43,085 nucleotides of DNA from an uncultured beta proteobacterium (GTDB taxonomy: Bacteria; Pseudomonadota; Gammaproteobacteria; Burkholderiales; SG8-41), in the NCBI GenBank assembly GCA_903889565.1, contig CAISYC010000062.1, positions 1-43,085 on the forward strand, in the 5' to 3' direction. The position numbers and the translations under genes are program-made. Positions 25,006-36,823 of this stretch are shown here, piece by piece. Numbering within the stretch: position 1 is the first letter of the stretch; each line of letters starts with the position of its first letter. The notes beneath the pieces are model-generated. The model saw only the letters and a list, made by a program, of their open reading frames with translations. It had not been told where the DNA came from and made no database searches.

Positions 25006-25427
25006 GATTCAGTGCGTGGTCAGGTCGCGGCGTCGATGTTGTGTTGTTGAGTTTCGTCTGGTCCTGTATTGCGAGCGAGGTTTGTCTGGCGTTCCATCCG
25101 CTTGTTCCCGCAAAACCATTTTTCAGTCTGAATTCATCCGCAAGCGCCGTGCCAGCGCCGCAATCGCGGCTGATCTTGTTGATATGGATGAATAAAATAT
25201 TTGATTCGTGAATTCTGTCACCGCCGGTAGCCGCGCAATTCGTCGTTGTTTTGACGTGGTTTATTCACCTGTGTCGATAATTCATCGGCAAACAGGAAGC
25301 TGCGCACCGTCTTAAGGCGGCGTGCCGTGACAATGCACCCGGAATTGGCGTAATTTGCATTAAACCTTTGTGACAGTTTTATAAACTATTGAATTGGTTG
25401 ATTTTAGCGCTTGGCATGTCGGTTGCT
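25006..25427. other. Upstream region of nasA
   Basis: No gene. It contains a stable hairpin (CCTGT-GTCGAT / ATCGGC-ACAGG, about 25268-25296) and a GC-rich imperfect hairpin near 25303-25325. TGGCGTTCCATCCGCTT at 25087 has the right GG-N10-GC spacing for a sigma-54 site but a poor -12 element. No hexaloop pair with A1/G4 and no T-tracted terminator was found, so the nrt-leader mechanism is not visible here. Confidence 0.45.
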
Positions 25428-28247
25428 ATGAAATGGGGCATGCCACAGACGAAATCCACATGCTGCTATTGCGGCGTCGGTTGCGGCGTGCTGATCGAGA
25501 GCGACGGCGCGCGTATTACCGGCGTCGCCGGCGATCCCCTGCACCCGGCGAATTTCGGTCGCCTGTGCACCAAGGGTTCGACGCTGCATCTCGCTGATGC
25601 CGGCATTGCGCGCGCGCGTTATCCGGAACTGCGGCGCGCGCGGGATGGTTCGCGCGAGCGCGTCGATTGGGATGTTGCGCTCGATCATGCGGCTGCGCAG
25701 TTTGCCGCCATCATCCGCAAGCACGGTCCCGACAGCGTGGCGTTTTACATTTCGGGTCAATTGCTGACCGAGGACTATTACGTCTTCAACAAGCTTGCCA
25801 AGGGCCTGATCGGCACCAACAACGTCGATACCAATTCGCGCCTGTGCATGTCGTCGGCGGTGGCCGGCTACAAAATGACGCTGGGCGCCGATGCGCCGCC
25901 GGCTTGTTACGAGGACATCGACCGCGCGGACTGCCTGTTCATCGCCGGTTCAAACACGGCGTTTGCACATCCGATCCTGTTCCGTCGCATCGAGGCGGCC
26001 AAGGCGGCGCGGCCCGAACTGAAAATCATCGTCGTCGATCCACGCCGCACCGACACGGCCGCTGCGGCCGATCTGTTTTTGCCGATCCTGCCCGGCACCG
26101 ACGTCGCCCTCTACAACGCAATGCTGAATGTCATGTTGTGGGAAGGGCTGTGCGATGACCAATTCATTGCTGCCCATACCGAAGGATTCGAAGCGCTGAA
26201 AGAAGCCGTGCGCGAATACACGCCGGCAGTCGCTGCCTCGATCTGCGGCGTCGAGGCGGCCGATATCCGGCAGGCGGCGATCTGGTTCGGCGGTTCCGCC
26301 GCCACGCTGTCGATGTATTGCCAAGGCCTCAATCAATCGACCCACGGCAGCGACAACAACGCCGCGCTGATCAATCTGCATTTGGCAACGGGCCAGATCG
26401 GCCGGCCCGGCGCCGGCCCGTTGTCGCTGACCGGCCAACCCAACGCGATGGGCGGGCGCGAAGTCGGCGGCATGGCGAATCTGCTGTCGGCGCACCGCGA
26501 TCTCGCCAATGCCGATCACCGCGCCGAGGTGGCGCAGTTGTGGGGCATAGCCGACGTGCCGGCGAAGCCGGGCAGGACGGCGGTCGAGATGTTCGACGCG
26601 ATTTCCCGCGGCGAGATCAAGGCGGTGTGGATTGCGTGTACCAATCCGGCGCAATCGATGCCTGATCTGACGCAGGTGCGGGCGGCGCTTGAGCGCGCCG
26701 AATTCGTGGTGGTGCAGGAGGCCTATCGCAACACCGACACCACGCAATATGCCGATTTGTTATTGCCGGCTTCGACCTGGGGCGAAAAGGAAGGCACGGT
26801 GACCAATTCCGAGCGTCGCATCACGCGCGTGCGCGCCGCAGTGCCGCCGCCGGGCGAGGCGCGCGCCGACTGGGCGATTGCCGCCGACTTTGCCCTTCGC
26901 CTGGGCGTCGCACTGGACGATGCGCGCGCGCCGCGACTGTTTCCGTATACAGCACCCGAACAGGTTTTCAACGAACATCGCGAAACCACCAGCGGCCGCG
27001 ATCTTGATATCACGGGACTCAGCTATGCCATGCTCGAGTCGAATGGTCCGCAACAGTGGCCGCTGCCAGAGGGCGCGCCGGCAGGGCGCGCGCGTCTGTA
27101 TGAAGACGGAAAATTCCCGACCCCGAACGGGCGCGCGCGTTTTGCCGACGTGCGTCACCGCGCCACCGCCGAAAAGGTCGATGCGCGTTATCCGCTGGCC
27201 CTGAACACGGGGCGATTGCGCGACCAGTGGCACGGCATGAGCCGCACCGGCACCATCGCGCGCCTGTTAAATCACGCTGGTGAACCGCGGCTGGCGATGA
27301 ACGCGCGCGACATGGAACGCCGCCGCCTTGCCGACGGCGATGTTGTCCGGCTGAGAAGCCGCCGCGGCGAATTGATGGCGCGCGTCGAAGTTTCCGAACA
27401 GATGCGTTCCGGGCAGGCGTTTCTGCCGATGCACTGGGGCAGCCAGTTCATGAGCGGCGCAGGCGTCAACGCGCTGACGCAACCGGCGTTCGATCCGCTG
27501 TCGAAACAGCCTGAACTCAAGCACGCGGCGATCGAGGTCGAACCCGTCGTATTGCCGTATCAGGTGGTGGCAATGCGCCGCTTCGATGCGGGCGATGCCG
27601 CTTCCGTGCAGGCGCTGCGCGACGCGCTGCAGCCGCTGTTGCAGTCGTTCGATTACGCGACGCTGACGCTGAGCGGGCGCGACAACGCGGTGGTGGTGCT
27701 GCGCGGTTATGCCGCGGCGCCGATCGCCGACAGCGTGCTCGACAGGCTCGACCAATTGTTCGATCTCGCCGACACGACCCGCACCATGCGCTACATCGAT
27801 GCGCGGCGCCGCGTCGAAAAGGCCGCGCTGGTGGAGACCGGCATCGTGCAGAGCGTTTGCCTGTCGGGCGAGACCGCAGCACAGGAATGGCTGAAAAACA
27901 TGATGGTCGAGGGCGCGCCGGCCGACGCAATGCGCGCGTGGATACTGGCGCCGGTGGCGGCGCCGCCGCGCGGCAGCTTCAATCGCGGCAGAATCGTCTG
28001 CAATTGCCTGGATGTCGCCGAGGCCGAGATTACGGCCCAGCTTGCGGCGGGCGCCGGCTTCACGCAGTTGCAGGAGCGTCTTAAATGCGGCACCGAATGC
28101 GGCTCCTGTGTCCCCGAACTGAAACGCATGTGCCAGCCGCAGGAGCGCAGTCTGCAGTCCGCCAATGCAGATAAAAAATCCGTTGCGCACGAGGCCGGCG
28201 ATTTTGCCGGATTCGACGATGCAGGCCGGTCGCTCGCGCCGATATGA
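25428..28247 (+). CDS. nasA: Assimilatory nitrate reductase catalytic subunit
   Basis: 939 residues from ATG 25428; starts at 25416 and 25440 are also open and no ribosome site decides. The [4Fe-4S] site is CCYCGVGCG followed by GRLCTKG, as in NasA. The Mo-bisMGD domain follows (NTNSRLCMSSAVAGYK, VDPRRTDTAAAADLFLPI, GQPNAMGGREVGGMANLL, TNSERRITRVR), then the C-terminal molydopterin-binding domain. At the end is a BFD-like [2Fe-2S] domain: CNCLDVAEAEIT and CGTECGSC. It reduces nitrate to nitrite in the cytoplasm. The partner diaphorase is not in the window. ybiB and nasT follow in the same direction. Confidence 0.95.
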   Translation: MKWGMPQTKSTCCYCGVGCGVLIESDGARITGVAGDPLHPANFGRLCTKGSTLHLADAGIARARYPELRRARDGSRERVDWDVALDHAAAQFAAIIRKHGPDSVAFYISGQLLTEDYYVFNKLAKGLIGTNNVDTNSRLCMSSAVAGYKMTLGADAPPACYEDIDRADCLFIAGSNTAFAHPILFRRIEAAKAARPELKIIVVDPRRTDTAAAADLFLPILPGTDVALYNAMLNVMLWEGLCDDQFIAAHTEGFEALKEAVREYTPAVAASICGVEAADIRQAAIWFGGSAATLSMYCQGLNQSTHGSDNNAALINLHLATGQIGRPGAGPLSLTGQPNAMGGREVGGMANLLSAHRDLANADHRAEVAQLWGIADVPAKPGRTAVEMFDAISRGEIKAVWIACTNPAQSMPDLTQVRAALERAEFVVVQEAYRNTDTTQYADLLLPASTWGEKEGTVTNSERRITRVRAAVPPPGEARADWAIAADFALRLGVALDDARAPRLFPYTAPEQVFNEHRETTSGRDLDITGLSYAMLESNGPQQWPLPEGAPAGRARLYEDGKFPTPNGRARFADVRHRATAEKVDARYPLALNTGRLRDQWHGMSRTGTIARLLNHAGEPRLAMNARDMERRRLADGDVVRLRSRRGELMARVEVSEQMRSGQAFLPMHWGSQFMSGAGVNALTQPAFDPLSKQPELKHAAIEVEPVVLPYQVVAMRRFDAGDAASVQALRDALQPLLQSFDYATLTLSGRDNAVVVLRGYAAAPIADSVLDRLDQLFDLADTTRTMRYIDARRRVEKAALVETGIVQSVCLSGETAAQEWLKNMMVEGAPADAMRAWILAPVAAPPRGSFNRGRIVCNCLDVAEAEITAQLAAGAGFTQLQERLKCGTECGSCVPELKRMCQPQERSLQSANADKKSVAHEAGDFAGFDDAGRSLAPI

Positions 28248-28306: not shown

Positions 28307-29290
28307 ATGTCCTATGCCCAATATCTGAAAGCGCTCGGCAGCAACGATGGCAGCGAAGCCGATTTGTCGGAACACGATGCGCAGTTGCTGTTCGGTGCGA
28401 TGCTCGATGGCGGTGTGCCGGAACTGGAACTCGGCGCGTTGCTGATGGCCTTGCGCATGAAGACGGCCACGCTGTCGGAACTGGCCGGTTTCGCCGGCGC
28501 CCTCAATGAACGCCTGTTCCGCCTTGCGGTGCCGCACGCCAAAGCGCTGCCGGTGGTGCTACCAAGCTACGGCGGCGGGCGCGACCAGCCGAATCTGCTG
28601 CCGCTGCTGGCCTTGTTGCTGCAGCGTTTCGGCGTGCCGGTGCTGGTGCACGGCCCGCTGCACGGCGAAGGCGGCATCGCCAGCGCGTACGTTTTTCGCG
28701 AACTCGGCGTGATGCCCTGCGCCAACCTGGCGCAGGCGCAGGATGTGCTCGGCGCCGCCGGCATTGCCTTCGTGCCGACGGCAGTCCTCGCGCCCGGACT
28801 CGCCGAACTGCTGGCCTTGCGCGGCCGGATGGGCGTGCGCACGATGGCGCACAAGGTGGCGCGCCTGCTCGATCCCTTCGAGGGCGAAAGCCTGCGCGTG
28901 GTCGGCGTCGAGCGGCCGTCGGCACTCGAACTGACACGCGAGTTTCTGCTGGCCGCCGGCGCCCACTCCCTCTTGTTGCTGGGCGCGCAGGGAGAGCCCT
29001 ATGCCGACCCGACCAACCGGCCGCGCATCGAACATTTGTTCGAGGGCAACGCCGACGTGTTGTTTGAAGCCGAGACCGCGGCCTTGAAAAAAATCGCGAC
29101 GCTTCCCGAAAACGTCAATGCCGCATCGACCGCCGACTGGATCCGCCGCGCGCTGGCGGGCGAAACGCCGGTGCCCCTGCCGCTCGTGAATCAGTTGGCG
29201 ACCTGTCTGTTTGCCGCCGGCTATACTACCGACATGAACCAGGCCAAGGCGATCGTTGCGGTCGAAACCGGCAGTCTTGCCGCGGCCTGA
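28307..29290 (+). CDS. ybiB: YbiB family protein (TrpD-like phosphoribosyltransferase fold)
   Basis: 327 residues. It has the anthranilate phosphoribosyltransferase fold but lacks the canonical PRPP motif. The stretch LPSYGGGRDQPNLLPLLALLLQRFGVPVLVHG is typical of YbiB/TrpD2, and RMGVRTMAHKVARLLDPF and SLRVVGVERPSALEL support this. E. coli YbiB is a nucleic-acid-binding protein under SOS control. It lies between nasA and nasT, 59 and 16 bases from them, so it is probably part of that transcript. Confidence 0.88.
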   Translation: MSYAQYLKALGSNDGSEADLSEHDAQLLFGAMLDGGVPELELGALLMALRMKTATLSELAGFAGALNERLFRLAVPHAKALPVVLPSYGGGRDQPNLLPLLALLLQRFGVPVLVHGPLHGEGGIASAYVFRELGVMPCANLAQAQDVLGAAGIAFVPTAVLAPGLAELLALRGRMGVRTMAHKVARLLDPFEGESLRVVGVERPSALELTREFLLAAGAHSLLLLGAQGEPYADPTNRPRIEHLFEGNADVLFEAETAALKKIATLPENVNAASTADWIRRALAGETPVPLPLVNQLATCLFAAGYTTDMNQAKAIVAVETGSLAAA

Positions 29291-29306: not shown

Positions 29307-29882
29307 ATGCTCAAGGTCATGATCGTCGATGAAGTCATCGAGCGTGCCGAGGTGCTGCAGCAGGCACTGGTGCAGGCCGGCTACGAAGTGGTCGCTTACG
29401 CGCCATCGACGTTTGACCTGCACCGTCAGGTCGGCGCGGTGAAGCCGGACATCGTCATCATCGACACCGATTCGCCGGACCGCGACACGCTCGAAAACCT
29501 CATCGTGCTCAGTCGCGACGATCCGCGGCCGATCGTCATGTTCACGCACGATGGCGACAGCGAAAAAATCCGCGCCGCGACCCAGGCCGGCGTCAGCGCC
29601 TATGTGGTCGATGGCATGGCAGCCGAGCGCATCGGTCCCATCATCGATGCGGCGGTGGCGCGCTTCGACCAGTATTACGCCCTGAAGCGCGAGTTCGATG
29701 AAATTGAAGAAAAGCTTGCTGACCGCAAGGTCATCGAACGCGCCAAGGGCATCCTCATGAAGAGCCGCGGATTGTCCGAAGACGAGGCCTACCGCGCCTT
29801 GCGCAAGCGCGCGATGGAGAACAACGCCAAGCTGGTTGATGTCGCGCGCCAGCTGGTCGCCGTCGCCGGTTTGCTGACCTGA
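29307..29882 (+). CDS. nasT: NasT-type ANTAR-domain antiterminator
   Basis: 191 residues from ATG 29307; the open frame before it belongs to the end of ybiB in another frame. N-terminal pseudo-receiver (MLKVMIVDEVIERAE, DIVIIDTDSPDRDTLENL, IVMFTHDG), a coiled linker (YYALKREFDEIEEKLADRKV), then a C-terminal ANTAR domain (IERAKGILMKSRGLSEDEAYRALRKRAMENNAKLVDVARQL as short segments). ANTAR proteins bind paired hexaloop hairpins in leader RNA and prevent termination. A matching leader lies 200 bases downstream. The usual partner, the nitrate sensor NasS, is not adjacent. Confidence 0.93.
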   Translation: MLKVMIVDEVIERAEVLQQALVQAGYEVVAYAPSTFDLHRQVGAVKPDIVIIDTDSPDRDTLENLIVLSRDDPRPIVMFTHDGDSEKIRAATQAGVSAYVVDGMAAERIGPIIDAAVARFDQYYALKREFDEIEEKLADRKVIERAKGILMKSRGLSEDEAYRALRKRAMENNAKLVDVARQLVAVAGLLT

Positions 29883-29951: not shown

Positions 29952-29966
29952 GCACTGCAGCAGTGC
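29952..29966. promoter_or_regulatory. NtrC-like enhancer palindrome
   Basis: GCAC-TGCAGCA-GTGC, within a longer inverted repeat CGCACTG/CAGTGCG. Half-sites and 7-base spacing match the NtrC consensus GCAC-N7-GTGC. It lies about 113 bases upstream of the expected start at 30072, a normal enhancer position for a sigma-54 promoter. Confidence 0.6.
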
Positions 29967-30045
29967 GCATTCGGCGGGCGTCCTCAACCGTCGATTGCGG
30001 TCTAATTGTCATACAAATCAATTGTCTGGTTTGTTTCTCTGGCTA

Positions 30046-30061
30046 TGGCATGACGATTGCT
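30046..30061 (+). promoter_or_regulatory. Sigma-54 (-24/-12) promoter of the nrt operon
   Basis: TGGCATGACGATTGCT matches the RpoN consensus TGGCACG-N4-TTGCT at all but one position, with the strict GG-N10-GC spacing. The expected start is near 30072. NtrC and RpoN control of nitrate assimilation is well established. Confidence 0.8.
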
Positions 30062-30086
30062 AAAAATTAACGCCATAGCGCATCGC

Positions 30087-30131
30087 GCCCAATGGCGGGC
30101 CGGCGCCGGCAACGGACAACGGCGTCCCGTT
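30087..30131 (+). promoter_or_regulatory. ANTAR (NasT) RNA target: two hexaloop hairpins
   Basis: Hairpin 1: GCCC-AATGGC-GGGC (30087-30100). Hairpin 2: GGAC-AACGGC-GTCC (30114-30127), extended by AAC/GTT with one bulged C (30111-30131). The loops, AATGGC and AACGGC, differ in one base, and both have A at position 1 and G at position 4, the hallmark of ANTAR targets. The second hairpin uses the bases of the 5' arm of the terminator at 30118, so the two structures exclude each other. Confidence 0.75.
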
Positions 30132-30171
30132 TTCGCGGCAGTTTGCTGCGGAAACAGGACGCCGTTTTTTT
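30118..30171 (+). terminator. Leader attenuator terminator of the nrt operon
   Basis: AACGGCGTCC (30118-30127) pairs with GGACGCCGTT (30157-30166), a 10-bp perfect stem, followed by a run of seven T (30165-30171). It lies 40 bases before the nrtA start codon. Its 5' arm overlaps ANTAR hairpin 2. Confidence 0.88.
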
Positions 30172-30211
30172 ATGGCCCGTTGCCCCGGGAATTTTTTTAC
30201 AGGAGTCCATC

Positions 30212-31498
30212 ATGAGCAACGGAGACAAATATGAAACAACCAGCAGCGTCCTGCCCGACGACCAGCGCCGCGAGTTTCTGCGCCGGGGCAGCCTGCTCAC
30301 CGGCGCCGCAATCATGAGCCTGGTGCCGGACGCGGTGCGCAATGCCGCGTGGGCGGCGGGTTCCGATGCGCCCGAGAAGACCGAGGTGAAAATCGGCTTC
30401 ATCCCGCTCACCGATTGCTCGAGTGTAGTGATGGCCAACGTCATGGAATTCGACAAGAAGTACGGCATCAAGATCGTGCCGAGCAAGGAGGCTTCATGGG
30501 CCTCGGTGCGCGACAAGCTGGTCAATGGCGAACTCGACGCGGCGCATGTGCTCTACGGTCTGATCTATGGCGTGCAGATGGGCATCGGCGGACCGAAGAA
30601 GGATATGTCGGTTCTCATGGCCATCAACAACAACGGTCAGGCAATCTCGCTGTCAAAGAAACTCTTCGACAAAGGCGTCAAGGATGGTCAATCGCTGAAA
30701 GCATTGATGGACAAGGAAAAGCGCGAATATGTGTTCGCGCAGACTTTTCCGACTGGCACGCACGCCATGTGGCTTTATTACTGGTTGGCCGCGCACGGGA
30801 TTAATCCGTTTACGGACGCCAAGACCATTACGGTGCCGCCGCCGCAGATGGTGGCAAATATGCGGGTCGGAGCGATGGACGGATTTTGCGTCGGCGAGCC
30901 CTGGAACAATCGCGCGATCGTCGATGGCATCGGCTTCACCGCCGAGACCACGCAGGCGATCTGGAAGGATCATCCGGAGAAAACGCTGGGCACCACCGCC
31001 GAGTGGGTGCAGAAATATCCGAATACGGCGCGTGCGATGACGGCGGCGGTGCTCGAAGCGGGGCGCTGGATCGATGCGTCACTCTCGAACCGGCAGAAGA
31101 CGGCGCAGACTGTCGCCGACAAATCATATATTAATACCGACTCGGATGTGATTCTTGCGCGCATGCTCGGCCGCTACGACAACGGTATCGGCAGAAAGTG
31201 GGACGACCCCGACTACATGAAGTTCTACAACGACGGCGCGGTGAATTATCCCTATCTGTCCGACGGCATGTGGTTTCTCACGCAGCACCGGCGCTGGGGT
31301 CTCCTGAAGGACGACCCGGATTATCTGGCGGTGGCGAAAAGGGTCAATCGCATCGATATCTACAAACAGGCCGCAACTGCGGCGCAGGTGCCGTTGCCGA
31401 AATCGGATTTCCGCACCTCGAAACTGATCGACGGCGTAATGTGGGACGGCAAGGATCCGAAAAAATATGCCGGCAGCTTCAAGATCAAGGTGGCCTGA
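30212..31498 (+). CDS. nrtA: Nitrate ABC transporter substrate-binding protein
   Basis: 428 residues from ATG 30212 with CAGGAG ahead. A twin-arginine signal, RREFLRRGSLLTGAA (from residue 19), marks export in folded form. The CmpA/NrtA-type binding domain follows (VKIGFIPLTDCSSVVMANVMEFD, KYGIKIVPSKEASWASVRDKLVNGELDAAHVLYGLIYGVQMGI as separate pieces, FPTGTHAMWLYYWLAAHGINP, DGFCVGEPWNN). Family members bind nitrate or nitrite. The Tat signal distinguishes it from cytoplasmic NasS. First gene after the leader; nrtB begins one base after its stop. Confidence 0.95.
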   Translation: MSNGDKYETTSSVLPDDQRREFLRRGSLLTGAAIMSLVPDAVRNAAWAAGSDAPEKTEVKIGFIPLTDCSSVVMANVMEFDKKYGIKIVPSKEASWASVRDKLVNGELDAAHVLYGLIYGVQMGIGGPKKDMSVLMAINNNGQAISLSKKLFDKGVKDGQSLKALMDKEKREYVFAQTFPTGTHAMWLYYWLAAHGINPFTDAKTITVPPPQMVANMRVGAMDGFCVGEPWNNRAIVDGIGFTAETTQAIWKDHPEKTLGTTAEWVQKYPNTARAMTAAVLEAGRWIDASLSNRQKTAQTVADKSYINTDSDVILARMLGRYDNGIGRKWDDPDYMKFYNDGAVNYPYLSDGMWFLTQHRRWGLLKDDPDYLAVAKRVNRIDIYKQAATAAQVPLPKSDFRTSKLIDGVMWDGKDPKKYAGSFKIKVA

Positions 31499-31499
31499 A

Positions 31500-32426
31500 A
31501 TGAGCGCAGCCATCCTCAGTCATGAAAAATTCGCCGCCGCGCCGCCGGCGGGCAGCGCGGTGACTGCGCCGGCGGTTGCGCCCTCACCGGCGGGCATGGC
31601 GCCTGCCGGTGACGCACCGCCGCTACGCCGGCATACCCCGCTGGTCGAAAAATACGGCGACGACATCGCGGCTTTTTTTCGCGCTGCCATTCCGATGGTG
31701 TTCGGGCTGGGCATCTTCGTCGTCGTCTGGGCGGTGCTGTCCGCGCACAGCACACTGCCGGGACCGCTCAAGACCTGGCATTCGGCGGTCGGCGTGTTCA
31801 GCGACCCGTTCTACCGCAAGGGGCCGAACGATCAGGGCATCGGCTGGAATATTCTGATGTCACTGGGCCGCGTCGGCATCGGCTTCGGCATGGCCGCGGT
31901 GATCGGTATTCCGCTGGGCTTCATGATCGGCCGTTTCAAATTCCTGTCCGGCATGATGGCGCCCATCATCAGCCTGCTGCGGCCGGTGTCGCCGCTGGCG
32001 TGGCTGCCGATCGGACTGCTCGTCTTCAAGGCGGCCAATCCGGCGGCGATCTGGGTGATTTTCATTTCGAGTATCTGGCCGATGATCGTCAACACTGCGG
32101 TCGGCGTGCGCGAAGTGCCGCAGGACTACCTCAATGTGGCGAAGGTGCTCAACCTGTCCGAGTGGAAGGTGTTTACGCGCATTCTGTTTCCCGCCTCGCT
32201 GCCCTTCGTTTTGACCGGCATCCGCCTGTCGATCGGCGTCGCCTGGCTGGTGATCGTCGCCGCGGAAATGCTGACCGGCGGCGTCGGTATCGGCTTCTGG
32301 GTGTGGGACGAATGGAACAACCTCAACGTCGAACACATCATCATCGCGATTTTCACAGTCGGTATCGTCGGCCTGCTGCTCGAGCAGTCGCTGATGCTGG
32401 TGGCGCGCCGCTTTGAATATCGTTAA
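31500..32426 (+). CDS. nrtB: Nitrate ABC transporter permease
   Basis: 308 residues from ATG 31500. After an Ala/Pro-rich cytoplasmic stretch come about six hydrophobic helices, and the EAA-type loop common to binding-protein-dependent permeases (VPQDYLNVAKVLNLSEWKVFTRILFPASLPF region, about residues 203-234). The VAAEMLTGGVGIGFWVW segment is typical of NrtB/TauC/SsuC. It forms the channel for the NrtA-delivered ligand. Confidence 0.93.
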   Translation: MSAAILSHEKFAAAPPAGSAVTAPAVAPSPAGMAPAGDAPPLRRHTPLVEKYGDDIAAFFRAAIPMVFGLGIFVVVWAVLSAHSTLPGPLKTWHSAVGVFSDPFYRKGPNDQGIGWNILMSLGRVGIGFGMAAVIGIPLGFMIGRFKFLSGMMAPIISLLRPVSPLAWLPIGLLVFKAANPAAIWVIFISSIWPMIVNTAVGVREVPQDYLNVAKVLNLSEWKVFTRILFPASLPFVLTGIRLSIGVAWLVIVAAEMLTGGVGIGFWVWDEWNNLNVEHIIIAIFTVGIVGLLLEQSLMLVARRFEYR

Positions 32427-32453
32427 CTGAATACCGCTGATCGGGGGGCTGTC

Positions 32454-33245
32454 ATGGAAAAATTCGTATCCGTCGAAAATATCGACATGAGTTTCAAGAC
32501 CAGGCAAGGGGCTTTTATCGCGCTGAAAGACATCAACCTGTCGATCGGCGAGGGCGAGTTTGTCACGCTGATCGGTCACTCCGGCTGCGGCAAATCGACG
32601 CTGCTTAATCTCGTTGCCGGTTTGCTGGTGCAGACCGCCGGCGTGCTGATCTGCGCCGGCCGCGAGATCAGCGGTCCCGGGCCCGATCGCGGCGTGGTAT
32701 TCCAGAATCATTCGCTGCTGCCGTGGCTGACCTGCGCCGAAAATATTTACCTCGCGGTCGAGCGCGTGTTTGGCGCGACCGAATCGAAGGCACAGTTGAA
32801 GGCGCGCACCCTCAAAGCGCTCGACCTGGTGCAGCTTGGTCACGCCGCCGACAAGCGGCCGAACGAAATCTCCGGCGGCATGAAGCAGCGCGTCGGCATC
32901 GCGCGCGCGCTGTCGATCGAACCGAAGGTGCTGCTGCTCGACGAGCCCTTCGGGGCGCTTGATGCGCTCACCCGCGCCCACCTGCAGGACGAACTGCTGA
33001 AGATCGTCGCCAAAACCGGCAGCACCGTGCTGATGGTGACGCATGACGTCGATGAGGCGGTGCTGCTGTCGGACCGCATCGTCATGATGACCAATGGTCC
33101 GTCGGCGACCATCGGCGACATCGTCAACGTCGATCTCGAGCGCCCGCGCGATCGTCTCGCGCTGGTCAACGACAGCCGCTACCACCATCTGCGCGGGCGC
33201 GTGCTCGAGTTCCTGTACCAGAAACAGTTGCGGGCGGCGGCGTGA
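32454..33245 (+). CDS. nrtD: Nitrate ABC transporter ATP-binding protein
   Basis: 263 residues. Walker A GHSGCGKST (about 43-51), Q-loop FQNHSLLPW, ABC signature ISGGMKQRVGIARALS, Walker B KVLLLDEPF with GALDALTR after, and H-loop VTHDVDEA. A single-domain ATPase of the NrtD/NasD type, without the C-terminal binding-protein-like domain of NrtC. 27 bases after nrtB and overlapping the start of an upstream alternative cobA start. Confidence 0.93.
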   Translation: MEKFVSVENIDMSFKTRQGAFIALKDINLSIGEGEFVTLIGHSGCGKSTLLNLVAGLLVQTAGVLICAGREISGPGPDRGVVFQNHSLLPWLTCAENIYLAVERVFGATESKAQLKARTLKALDLVQLGHAADKRPNEISGGMKQRVGIARALSIEPKVLLLDEPFGALDALTRAHLQDELLKIVAKTGSTVLMVTHDVDEAVLLSDRIVMMTNGPSATIGDIVNVDLERPRDRLALVNDSRYHHLRGRVLEFLYQKQLRAAA

Positions 33246-33262
33246 TTCGCAAGGAGACAGGC

Positions 33263-34018
33263 GTGAGGCGTGAGGCGGGCAAGGTATATCTGATTGGCGC
33301 GGGACCGGGTGACCCGGAACTGGTGACGCTCAAGGCGGTGCGCGCGCTGGGCCATGCCGACGTCGTGCTGATCGACGATCTGGTTGATCGTGCGGTGCTT
33401 GTACATGCGCCCCGCGCGCGCGTGGTGCCGGTCGGCAAACGCGGTGGTTGCAAATCGACACCCCAGCGCTTTATTGAAAAATTGATAGTGCGTCTGGCGC
33501 GGCGCGGCCAAGTCGTGGCGCGAGTGAAAGGCGGCGACCCCTTCGTGTTCGGCCGCGGCGGCGAAGAGGTGCTGGCGCTCGCCGCTGCCGGCATCGAATG
33601 CTCGGTGGTGCCGGGCATCACAGCCGGAGTCGGTGTGCCGGCGGCGTTCGGCATTCCTGTCACGCATCGCGATATTGCGCGCGGCGTGACCTTTGTGACC
33701 GCGCACGCGCGCGACGGCGCCGGACCTGATTGGGCGGCACTTGCGCGCACCGGGACCACGCTGGTGATCTACATGGGCATGCAGCACATCAACGCCATTG
33801 CCGCCGCGCTGTCGGCGGCGGGGCTCGCCGCAATGCCGGCGGCGGTGATCGAGCGCGGCACGACTGTCGATGAACGCTCGGTGGTGGATTGCGTCGGCGG
33901 CATTGCAGAAGCAGCACGGGCGGCCGGACTCGGCAGCCCGGCATTGATCGTGATCGGCGAGGTCGTGCGGATGGCGCGCAGCAGCGAACGCGCGCAACCG
34001 CTGCGGCGTCAGGCCTGA
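33263..34018 (+). CDS. cobA: Uroporphyrinogen-III C-methyltransferase (SUMT)
   Basis: 251 residues if started at GTG 33263, which follows AAGGAG; GTG 33242 overlapping the nrtD stop is also in frame. Signatures: YLIGAGPGDPELVTLKA, VPVGKRGG, RVKGGDPFVFGRGGEE, PGITAGVGVPAAFGIPVTHR, TLVIYMGM. It makes precorrin-2 from uroporphyrinogen III, the first step to siroheme, the cofactor of NirB. No fused CysG oxidase/chelatase domain; a separate CbiX lies at 38961. Confidence 0.93.
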   Translation: MRREAGKVYLIGAGPGDPELVTLKAVRALGHADVVLIDDLVDRAVLVHAPRARVVPVGKRGGCKSTPQRFIEKLIVRLARRGQVVARVKGGDPFVFGRGGEEVLALAAAGIECSVVPGITAGVGVPAAFGIPVTHRDIARGVTFVTAHARDGAGPDWAALARTGTTLVIYMGMQHINAIAAALSAAGLAAMPAAVIERGTTVDERSVVDCVGGIAEAARAAGLGSPALIVIGEVVRMARSSERAQPLRRQA

Positions 34019-34040: not shown

Positions 34041-36482
34041 TTGAAGAAAATGAAACTGGTGATGGTCGGCAACGGCATGGCCGGCGTGCGCGCGATTGAA
34101 GAGTTGATCAAGATCGCGCCCGATCTCTACGATATCACGGTGTTCGGCGCCGAGCCGCACGCCAATTACAACCGCATTCTGCTCTCGCCAGTGCTGGCGG
34201 GTGAAATGACGCTCCAAGACATCATGTTGAATGATGTCGACTGGTATGCGGCCAACAACATTACGCTGCATCTGAACAAAAAAATCGTCAAGGTCGACCG
34301 CGTTGCGCGCAAGGTGATCGCCGCCGACGGCACCGAAGCCGACTATGACCGCCTCCTGCTGGCGACCGGTTCCAATCCGTTCATGTTGCCGGTGCCGGGC
34401 GCCAAACTCGATGGTGTCATCACCTATCGCGACATCCAGGATACCAACGCGATGATCGAGGCCGCCGGCAAATACCGGAATGCCGTTGTGATCGGCGGCG
34501 GACTGCTCGGCCTCGAGGCGGCCAACGGATTGAAACTTCGCGGGATGAATGTCACCGTCGTGCATCTGATGGAATGGCTGATGGAGCGCCAGCTCGATCG
34601 CACTGCGGCCGGCATGCTGCAAAAAACGCTCGAAGCCAAGGGCCTTGCATTCAAACTGAAGACGCAGACTGCGGAAATCGTCGGCAGCGAAGATGGCGGC
34701 AAGGCCGGTCGCGTCACCGCGGTGCGTTTCAAAGATGGCGCGGAAATTCCGGCCGACCTCGTGGTGATGGCGGTCGGCATCCGCCCCAACACCGATCTGG
34801 CCGAGGCGGCCGGTCTGTATTGCAACCGCGGAATTGTGGTGAACGACACCATGCAGACCTACGATCCGCGCGTTTACGCGGTCGGCGAATGCGTCGCGCA
34901 TCGCGGCCTTGCATACGGTCTCGTCGCGCCGCTGTTTGACATGGCCAAAGTGTGCGCGAATCATCTGGCCAATTTCGGCATCGGCCGTTACCAGGGCTCG
35001 ACGCTATCAACCAAGCTCAAGGTCACCGGCGTCGATCTGTTTTCGGCGGGTGACTTCACTGGCGGCGCCGACACTGAAGAGATTCTGTTCAATGATGCGG
35101 TCGGGGGCGTTTACAAGAAACTTGTTTTGCGCGACAACCGTCTGATCGGTTGCGTGCTCTACGGCGACACCGTGGAGGGCGCCTGGTATTTCCAGTTGCT
35201 GCGCGACAAGCAGGACGTGCACGAGATACGCGACCATCTGATGTTTGGTCAGTCGCATCTTGGCAACAGCGGCCACCTCGGCCAGAACAAGGCCGCCGCA
35301 ATGTCCGACGAGATGGAGGTCTGCGGCTGCAACGGCGTGTGCAAGGGCAGCATCGTCAAGGCGATCAAGGAGCAGGGCCTGTTCACGCTCGACGATGTGA
35401 GAAAGCACACCAAGGCGTCGAGTTCCTGCGGCTCCTGCACCGGTCTGGTCGAACAGATTCTGTCGTCCACGGTCGGCGGCGCCTATCAGCCGGCGGAGGC
35501 AAAGAACAAACCGGTCTGCGCCTGCACCGCGCATACGCACGAGGAAGTGCGGCGCGTCATCCGCGAGCAGCATCTGTTGACGATTGCGGACGTCATGAGG
35601 TTCATGGAGTGGACGACGCCCAACGGTTGCGCGACCTGCCGGCCGGCGCTGAATTATTACCTGCTGTCGAGCTGGCCGCACGAGGCGAAGGACGATCCGC
35701 AGTCGCGCTTCATCAACGAACGCGCGCACGCCAATATTCAGAAGGACGGCACCTATTCGGTGATTCCGCGGATGTGGGGCGGCTCGACCAGCGCGGCGGA
35801 GTTGCGGCGCATTGCCGACGTCGTCGACAAGTACAAGATCCCGACGGTCAAAGTGACCGGCGGCCAGCGCATCGATCTCCTGGGTGTGAAGAAAGACGAT
35901 CTGCCCAGGGTCTGGCGCGATCTCGATATGCCCTCCGGGCACGCCTATGCAAAGGCGCTGCGCACGGTGAAGACCTGCGTTGGTTCCGAGTGGTGCCGCT
36001 TCGGCGTGCAGGATTCGACCAACATGGGCATCGACCTCGAAAAGGATTTGTGGCGCATGTATGCGCCGCACAAGGTCAAGCTCGCGGTGTCGGGCTGCCC
36101 GCGCAACTGCGCCGAGGCGACGATCAAGGATGTCGGTGTGATCGGCGTCGAATCGGGTTGGGAAATCTATGTCGCCGGCAACGGTGGCATCAAGGCCGAG
36201 GTGGCGCAGTTTTTGTGCAAGGTGAAAACACGCGACGAGGTGCTTGAATATGCGGGCGCCTTTCTCCAACTCTATCGCGAAGAGGCGCGTTATCTCGACC
36301 GCACGGTGCATTATGTCGCGCGCGTCGGCCTTGATTACATCAAGAGCAATATTGTCGACGATGCCGAAAAGCGCAAGGCACTCTATGCGCGTCTGCACTT
36401 TGCGTTGCAGGGCGAGCCCGACCCGTGGCGCGAGCGCGCCGCCGGCGCCGAGGCGCGCGAATTTGAGCTGCTGGAGGTTTGA
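34041..36482 (+). CDS. nirB: Nitrite reductase (NADH) large subunit
   Basis: 813 residues from TTG 34041 with GGAGGAAG ahead, giving MKKMKLVMVGNGMAG; ATG 34050 is an alternative. Order of domains: FAD/NADH reductase (VGNGMAGVRAIEE, VIGGGLLGLEAANGL), a BFD-like domain with CGCNGVCKGS and CGSC, a second cluster site with CACTAHT and CATCRP, then the ferredoxin-type nitrite reductase half with the siroheme and [4Fe-4S] cysteines CVGSEWCRFG and SGCPRNCAEA. It reduces nitrite to ammonium with six electrons from NADH. nirD follows two bases later. Confidence 0.96.
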   Translation: MKKMKLVMVGNGMAGVRAIEELIKIAPDLYDITVFGAEPHANYNRILLSPVLAGEMTLQDIMLNDVDWYAANNITLHLNKKIVKVDRVARKVIAADGTEADYDRLLLATGSNPFMLPVPGAKLDGVITYRDIQDTNAMIEAAGKYRNAVVIGGGLLGLEAANGLKLRGMNVTVVHLMEWLMERQLDRTAAGMLQKTLEAKGLAFKLKTQTAEIVGSEDGGKAGRVTAVRFKDGAEIPADLVVMAVGIRPNTDLAEAAGLYCNRGIVVNDTMQTYDPRVYAVGECVAHRGLAYGLVAPLFDMAKVCANHLANFGIGRYQGSTLSTKLKVTGVDLFSAGDFTGGADTEEILFNDAVGGVYKKLVLRDNRLIGCVLYGDTVEGAWYFQLLRDKQDVHEIRDHLMFGQSHLGNSGHLGQNKAAAMSDEMEVCGCNGVCKGSIVKAIKEQGLFTLDDVRKHTKASSSCGSCTGLVEQILSSTVGGAYQPAEAKNKPVCACTAHTHEEVRRVIREQHLLTIADVMRFMEWTTPNGCATCRPALNYYLLSSWPHEAKDDPQSRFINERAHANIQKDGTYSVIPRMWGGSTSAAELRRIADVVDKYKIPTVKVTGGQRIDLLGVKKDDLPRVWRDLDMPSGHAYAKALRTVKTCVGSEWCRFGVQDSTNMGIDLEKDLWRMYAPHKVKLAVSGCPRNCAEATIKDVGVIGVESGWEIYVAGNGGIKAEVAQFLCKVKTRDEVLEYAGAFLQLYREEARYLDRTVHYVARVGLDYIKSNIVDDAEKRKALYARLHFALQGEPDPWRERAAGAEAREFELLEV

Positions 36483-36484
36483 GC

Positions 36485-36823
36485 ATGAGCGCCGTCATTA
36501 AGCCCGCCGCCGCCGTGAAGTGGACGCGTGTGTGCGCGATCGAGGACATACCCCAGCTCGGCGCGCGCGTGGTCAAAAGCGCGCATGGCAATATCGCGGT
36601 ATTTCGCAACGCCGAGGACGAAGTGTTCGCCCTGCTGGATAAATGCCCGCACAAGCGCGGGCCGCTGTCCCAGGGCATTGTGTTCGGCCGCAAGGTCGCC
36701 TGCCCGCTGCACAACTGGAATATCGGGCTCGATGACGGCAATGCGGTGGCGCCGGACCAGGGTTGTGCGCGCTGCTTTCCGGTGAATCTTGACGGCGGCA
36801 TGGTGTTCCTCGATTTGAGCTAG
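36485..36823 (+). CDS. nirD: Nitrite reductase (NADH) small subunit
   Basis: 112 residues from ATG 36485 with GGAGG ahead. Rieske-type fold with CPHKRGP and CPLHNWNIGLDDG, the two Cys and two His ligands of a [2Fe-2S] Rieske cluster retained (many enterobacterial NirD proteins lack them). It acts with NirB. Last gene of the nrt-nir operon; no T-tracted terminator was seen directly after it. Confidence 0.93.
   Translation: MSAVIKPAAAVKWTRVCAIEDIPQLGARVVKSAHGNIAVFRNAEDEVFALLDKCPHKRGPLSQGIVFGRKVACPLHNWNIGLDDGNAVAPDQGCARCFPVNLDGGMVFLDLS

Follow-up and report, generated by a model that had tools for sequence, protein, structure and literature searches.

A probable NtrC/sigma-54-started and NasT-antiterminated leader preceding the nrtABD-cobA-nirBD operon of an uncultured betaproteobacterium

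Described NasT and ANTAR leader systems

The NalA leader of nirBD-PA1779-cobA in Pseudomonas is said to have been described by Romeo in 2012. In this system NtrC/sigma-54 initiation is combined with NasT-dependent antitermination in the leader that precedes nirBD (excerpts of PMC12830290). The mechanism of ANTAR proteins is further known from PMC3369931 and PMC8934654, as excerpted, in addition to PMC12830290. The available portions of PMC3369931 place ANTAR targets upstream of nitrogen genes in numerous bacteria, with Burkholderia named among the hosts, while sigma-54 promoters have been predicted before the genes for ANTAR proteins, including NasT, in beta- and gamma-proteobacteria (PMC12316311, in part). 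The Paracoccus NasS keeps hold of NasT as long as neither nitrate nor nitrite is sensed, and in Azotobacter NasS acts negatively and NasT positively (both from excerpts of PMC3795266).

A leader of this kind is located between nasT and nrtA in the stretch of 43,085 nucleotides analysed here (hereafter the window). It is a further member of the known NtrC/sigma-54 and NasT leader type and, since the NalA scheme is already in print, it is not novel in kind; it does offer a clean and compact case of nitrogen control in two layers beyond the species studied. Like the NalA leader as excerpted in PMC12830290, it combines a predicted NtrC/sigma-54 start and NasT antitermination with downstream nitrite reductase and cobA genes, but nrtABD comes first in the window and NasS was not found. 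The dual hairpin motif and terminator are shared with the Klebsiella NasR-nasF leader (PMC3369931, in part), and the P1 and P2 hexaloops, with P2 overlapping the terminator and the spacing limited, are shared with the EutV-dependent eut leaders of Enterococcus (excerpts of PMC3369931 and PMC8934654). The regulators differ, as Klebsiella NasR senses nitrate through its own NIT domain, whereas the NasT of the window has a receiver-like domain. EutV, which serves different genes, is activated by phosphorylation, carried out by EutW.

Organization of the nitrate locus

The nitrate locus comprises, in order, nasA, ybiB, nasT, the leader, nrtA, nrtB, nrtD, cobA, nirB and nirD, all on the forward strand. 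The nasA gene (25412-28247 including its promoter; start ATG at 25440) was assigned by resemblance and context, as no NCBIfam model reached its cut-off, the best being formate dehydrogenase alpha (565.5 of the 666.25 required), followed by the NasA and NasC models. Directly before it lies a second sigma-54 site (25412-25427), which ends 12 bases before the ATG, and the predicted start at 25438 would render the nasA mRNA nearly leaderless. The same layout was observed in all four relatives examined (L002, L003, L005 and L007). No NtrC-type palindrome, with up to one mismatch allowed, was found within 550 bases upstream of nasA.

Between nasA and nasT lies a TrpD2-like gene, ybiB (28307-29290; NF006005, 315 bits against a cut-off of 185), which also precedes nasT in L002-L005, L007, L008 and L095, with only the end of ybiB present in L004. 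Its Escherichia coli counterpart is a DNA-binding interactor of ObgE (PMC10123104, in part). The nasT gene (29307-29882) encodes a protein of 191 amino acids with receiver-like and ANTAR domains (PF03861; e-value: 2.5e-22; 81 bits), a predicted RNA-binding antiterminator. It received no specific NCBIfam name and its receiver matches fell below cut-off. The stretch IIDTDSPDRD, which we take to be the phospho-acceptor region, is kept, while the lysine usual in receivers was not seen. This is the sole PF03861 match found in the genome, and its gene adjoins the leader, an arrangement kept in relatives.

The first gene of the downstream operon, nrtA (30212-31498), encodes a nitrate-binding protein (PF13379; e-value: 3.1e-104) with a twin-arginine signal recognized by eye. 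It is followed by nrtB, nrtD and cobA (31467-34018; TIGR01183, TIGR01184 and NF004790, all above cut-off) and by nirB and nirD (34041-36823), of which nirB matches TIGR02374 above cut-off and the nirD frame (36479-36823) was identified by eye. The operon is thus nrtABD-cobA-nirBD, as the preliminary description of this DNA had it. Elsewhere in the window (1-24000), several tricarboxylate-transporter-type binding proteins and MmgE/PrpD-like and UbiD-like proteins were noted by eye.

Elements and folding of the leader

NtrC/sigma-54 promoters consist of a -24/-12 element and an enhancer about 100 bases upstream. Upstream of nrtA the -24/-12 element TGGCATGACGATTGCT occupies positions 30046-30061 of the forward strand, with the -24 G at 30048 and the -12 C at 30060, which places the predicted transcription start near 30072. 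Only two matches to TGGCAYR-N4-TTGCW occur in the 43 kb, against 0.09 expected, and both, at 30046 and 25412, lie in the nitrate locus. The candidate enhancer is the NtrC-like palindrome GCACTGCAGCAGTGC (GCAC-N7-GTGC; 29952-29966, strand not assigned), centred at -113. By itself, the pattern GCAC-N7-GTGC is no more frequent in the window than chance predicts (two found against 2.16 expected), and the assignment draws on its positional conservation in relatives.

The leader further contains two hairpins with A1/G4 hexaloops, the second of which overlaps an intrinsic terminator, the two features by which ANTAR-target leaders are recognized, and a single ANTAR protein was found in the same genome. 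The upstream hairpin (30087-30100, forward strand) closes the loop AATGGC (30091-30096) with the arms GCCC and GGGC, while the downstream hairpin (core 30114-30127, extended to 30111-30131 with one bulged C) closes the loop AACGGC (30118-30123) with GGAC and GTCC. The terminator (30118-30171, forward strand) consists of the 5' arm AACGGCGTCC (30118-30127), the 3' arm GGACGCCGTT (30157-30166) and seven T residues (30165-30171), and an inner hairpin of 12 bp lengthens it in the predicted fold. As read from the sequence, its 5' arm is part of the downstream hexaloop hairpin and the two structures are mutually exclusive. A scan for the composite, defined as two A1/G4 hexaloops 14-34 nt apart with a terminator arm matching at 9 or more of 10 positions and a T run, returned this single place on either strand of the window and none in 60 shuffles. 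The generic terminator scan, which covers loops of up to 8 nt, did not report the terminator. The ATG within the AATGGC loop opens a frame (30092-30212) that runs through the terminator into nrtA; this was taken as chance, the corresponding frame in L002, the only relative compared, not being in register with nrtA.

When folded with its terminator, the leader is more stable than shuffled sequences (z-score: -5.3), while the segment 30072-30132, which precedes the terminator 3' arm, folds about as stably as shuffles do (z-score: -0.5). In the full leader the terminator fold reaches -63.8 kcal/mol against -49.7 kcal/mol for the forced two-hairpin fold, such that the hexaloop pair is not the minimum-energy structure; this modelled deficit of 14 kcal/mol fits a default-off switch, with which it is compatible and of which it is no proof. 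In nascent RNA up to 30135, however, the two-hairpin fold (-26.3 kcal/mol) lies within 0.9 kcal/mol of the best fold (-27.2 kcal/mol). The near-equality suggests that the antiterminator is able to form ahead of the terminator and then needs to be held, which is the known mode of ANTAR action. The preliminary description had listed the palindrome, the sigma-54 site, the two hexaloop hairpins and the terminator sharing its 5' arm, and all were recovered at the positions it gave. In the constrained folding it had proposed, the hexaloop pair comes close to the best fold in nascent RNA and is the less stable alternative in the full leader.

From these elements we infer the transcription start, the promoter activity, the binding of NtrC and NasT, and the readthrough as follows. 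When nitrogen is limiting, sigma-54 polymerase at 30046-30061 would be activated by phosphorylated NtrC sitting at 29952-29966, and the transcript would begin near 30072. By default a short terminated leader would be produced, because 30118-30127 pairs with 30157-30166. Active NasT dimers would bind both A1/G4 hexaloops (30091-30096 and 30118-30123), and the second hairpin, when held, would occupy the 5' arm of the terminator and allow the polymerase to continue into nrtABD-cobA-nirBD. The presumed nasA-ybiB-nasT operon would also lie behind a sigma-54 site. Overall, the leader is very probably an NtrC/sigma-54-started, NasT-antiterminated and default-terminated switch before nrtABD-cobA-nirBD.

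Conservation of the leader among relatives

Related loci were collected with NasT as query, using the best 80 of 94 relatives, of which the clear relatives (L002-L060) were retained and the weaker ones (L061-L081) left out. The window and its seven nearest relatives (L002-L008, among which L004 and L005 are near copies of each other) share the enhancer GCACYGCARCAGTGC, the promoter, both hairpins and the terminator in the same order and spacing. In all eight the enhancer lies at -112 or -113, and the best terminator-arm match is 8 to 10 of 10 positions, the place listed for L002 being a later equal match. L002 and L004 carry the names Chitinophaga and Bordetella, respectively; these MAG names look doubtful, as gene order and identity fit betaproteobacterial relatives. 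Of 59 regions, 54 have a sigma-54 site and five are without one; in 45 of the 54 an exact GCAC-N7-GTGC palindrome precedes that site by 40-150 bases, where base composition would predict 0.039, the regions being related rather than independent. A sigma-54-like site, by a looser pattern, is also found 26-72 bases before nasT in 46/51 of the loci L009-L059, suggesting that nasT and the leader lie there on one transcript, with nasT first.

The terminal hairpin pattern is present in 54 of the 59 regions and missing in five, and this comparative set of 54 leaders describes the NasT target sharply. Hairpins of at least four pairs with A1/G4 hexaloops number 90 in these leaders, whereas shuffles gave 8.4 on average and 18 at most, so that some of the 90 are chance. 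Among the 16 possible signatures of the first and fourth bases of six-nucleotide hairpin loops, A..G accounts for 90 and the next for 15. The stems change with pairing kept in the nearest relatives (GCCC/GGGC, GTCC/GGGC, GTCC/GGAC and ATCC/GGAT). In 36 leaders the pair covariation is 0.526 against 0.185 when shuffled, and structures slid along the alignment reach at most 0.130; these 36 rows were selected for having four pairs, so that full pairing is given by construction and the variety of pairs is the informative part. The comparison of related leaders that the preliminary description had proposed thus bears out its hexaloops, the A1/G4 loops being kept.

Further A1/G4 hairpins within 125 bases, counted when they have three or more pairs closed by C-G (a cut-off set without a shuffle control), are absent from two of the 54 leaders, single in 13, double in 37 and triple in two. 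Eight of the 13 leaders with a single further hairpin are of the window type (the layout of the window and L002-L008), and the window leader holds the near hexaloop pair only. Three or more hexaloops in all are found in 39/54 leaders, every one of them in L009-L059 (39 of the 46 there with a terminal hairpin), and their hosts are mostly labelled Methylophilaceae or Methylotenera. Some NasS-positive genomes of the order have three-loop leaders as well (for example L188, L191 and L193). An upstream hairpin is present in 52 leaders; the nearest one with at least four pairs lies 14-30 bases from the terminal hairpin in 43 of them, measured from its loop, and 36-66 bases in the remainder, while distal hairpins are found approximately 50-113 bases away. 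In the EutV system, a linker 20 nt longer abolishes antitermination (excerpts of PMC8934654). By analogy with this limit, the near pair may be the functional one and the distal hairpin a possible extra recruiter. Three Methylotenera-labelled loci (L049, L054 and L055), whose leaders contain at most one further hexaloop, carry after the leader an NrtA-like gene that leaves no room for a signal peptide.

Control of NasT activity

A NasT-type ANTAR regulator lies beside the nitrate assimilation genes, as in NasS-NasT systems, but the cytoplasmic NrtA-like sensor of such systems was not found, the NasS query giving no match at 1e-40 in the genome (99.69% complete, 74 contigs). The two best NMT1_2 proteins of this genome, the NrtA of the window and another NrtA, each carry a twin-arginine signal. 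All 34 genomes searched among the relatives (for 34 of the 59 loci L002-L060) contain a match at 1e-20, which exceeds 400 bits, and represents a clear NasS, only in G033 and G034; G029 has an NrtA-like frame lacking a signal. No NasS was found in the 31 remaining genomes of the 34, where the best match falls in a frame of NrtA length (413-599 amino acids); the signal of this frame was checked only in those cases in which the locus examined included nrtA. The twin-arginine motif test is crude, flagging 52 of 58 rows, including the NasS of L057 by way of upstream letters, and two of the six unflagged rows are masked pieces of L026. NrtA-like genes without room for a signal, taken as nasS, directly follow nasT in 12 of 50 loci of the order (L114, L183-L191, L193 and L195), while L192 and L194 are ambiguous; the 50 comprise the 30 best NasT matches and 20 picked loci, many chosen for looking NasS-positive. 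With NasS seen elsewhere in the order, its lack concerns the lineage of the window and its near kin.

Since NasS was not found, NasT would be limited either only by its own synthesis or by another input; its gating here may depend on its own amount, another ligand or another partner. Nitrate gating in its usual form is doubtful at this leader. The preliminary description had nitrate acting at elongation, a step left unsupported where NasS, the nitrate gate of known NasT systems, was not found in the genome or in 31/34 of the relatives' genomes searched. In an alignment of NasT proteins, the motif FTHDGD or FTHDGE occurs in 8/8 sequences without NasS seen beside them, and another motif in three with NasS. 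It was rejected as a mark of NasS-less NasT, with FTHDSD found in the NasS-linked L183 and FSADGN in L105, which has no adjoining NasS.

Two alternatives retain the leader and NasT as proposed and differ in the signal. In the first, nitrate would gate NasT through an unrecognised sensor, whether an unusual NasS, a cytoplasmic form of NrtA, or YbiB; this is a real possibility, which we hold only tentatively. NasT systems elsewhere are nitrate-gated (PMC3795266, as excerpted), ybiB is co-directional with nasT in the window, L002, L003, L005, L007 and L008 (its end only in L004), and the signal-less NrtA-like genes of L049, L054 and L055 would suit such a sensor. Against it, both of the best NMT1_2 proteins of the genome carry export signals, the second start in nrtA seen by eye has no clear ribosome site, and ybiB was not seen beside nasT in L006 or L009-L060, for which reason YbiB was rejected as an obligatory partner.

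In the second, NasT would be free rather than nitrate-gated, and the leader would measure the amount of NasT in a nitrogen-limitation feed-forward through the two sigma-54 promoters, a reading that is conceivable yet falls somewhat short of probable. It agrees with the missing NasS, with nasA, ybiB and nasT running co-directionally behind the second sigma-54 site, and with the 46 of 51 loci in which a sigma-54-like site precedes nasT and nasT its own leader. Furthermore, the NasT of Azotobacter stays active after loss of nasS, which we count in its favour. A terminator gated by NasT level alone, however, would add little beyond the promoter, and no NtrC-type palindrome was found in the 550 bases upstream of nasA. 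Other inputs also exist: in Pseudomonas putida, NasT is reportedly inhibited by c-di-GMP (Nie 2024, as cited in the excerpted PMC12830290).

That the terminator, which begins approximately 235 bases after nasT, serves chiefly to end the nasA-ybiB-nasT transcript, with NasT control a mere vestige, is highly improbable, given that the sigma-54 promoter sits between nasT and the terminator and the A1/G4 hexaloops are kept while the stems change.

For the preferred switch, started by NtrC/sigma-54 and antiterminated by NasT, we tentatively suggest, without favouring it over its negation, a NasT lineage without NasS that is under other control, either nitrogen-limitation feed-forward or a ligand acting through the receiver-like domain. 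The same broad group would commonly have a three-hexaloop target, with the distal hairpin recruiting NasT, and the window would represent a reduced two-hexaloop form.

Rfam families and distribution across the order

No Rfam family matches the window at gathering score. P11 (RF00625), which by resemblance we take to be the NalA RNA, aligns to the leader over its whole length (25.8 bits; e-value: 8.8e-4), far below its gathering score of 70. Its printed consensus, as we read it, has three A1/G4 hexaloops, compared with two in the window leader. The consensus of the narK RNA (RF03032), also by our own reading, contains a sigma-54-like element and two A1/G4 hexaloops, as in the window, where its score (23 bits; e-value: 0.03) is below the gathering score of 43.2 and its e-value no better than that of the chance match PsiU2-55 (0.031). 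Along with the latter, the sub-threshold matches to MIR8670 and P31, with scores near that of narK, were taken as chance. RF03032 does reach gathering (43.3 against 43.2) at the NasT leader of G175, the sole such place in 40 loci scanned (L113:1100-1169, recurring as L125:1500-1569, both on the minus strand). This match and the sigma-54-like element in the consensus suggest that the narK RNA is probably a NasT leader together with part of a sigma-54 promoter, which is DNA rather than RNA. Two separately named Rfam families are thus probably tied to one mechanism.

A leader model (R1), in whose training set the window was included, finds the window leader with 39.5 bits (e-value: 7.6e-8). This is the one match below an e-value of 0.1 in the genome; a second, at 0.9, was taken as chance and rejected as a further leader. 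Among 300 genomes of the order, which are related and yield counts that are not independent, NasT is present in 120 and an R1 match at an e-value of 0.01 in 74. NasT accompanies 60 of these 74, against 120/300 overall, and 44 of the 45 with a match at 1e-4 or better. Conversely, 60 of the 120 NasT genomes have no R1 match, the strict filters losing weak ones. The preliminary description had assigned the operon to an NtrC, sigma-54, ANTAR and terminator leader; this chain stands as one conserved module with nasT adjoining and a strong co-occurrence of leader and NasT, and its nitrate step is unsupported. An R1 match without a NasT match at 1e-15 was found in 14/74 genomes, the strongest in G058 (e-value: 3.2e-5) and G198 (e-value: 1.3e-4). 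In these two and in G320, likewise without a NasT match at 1e-15, the R1 leader lies just before an NrtA-like gene.
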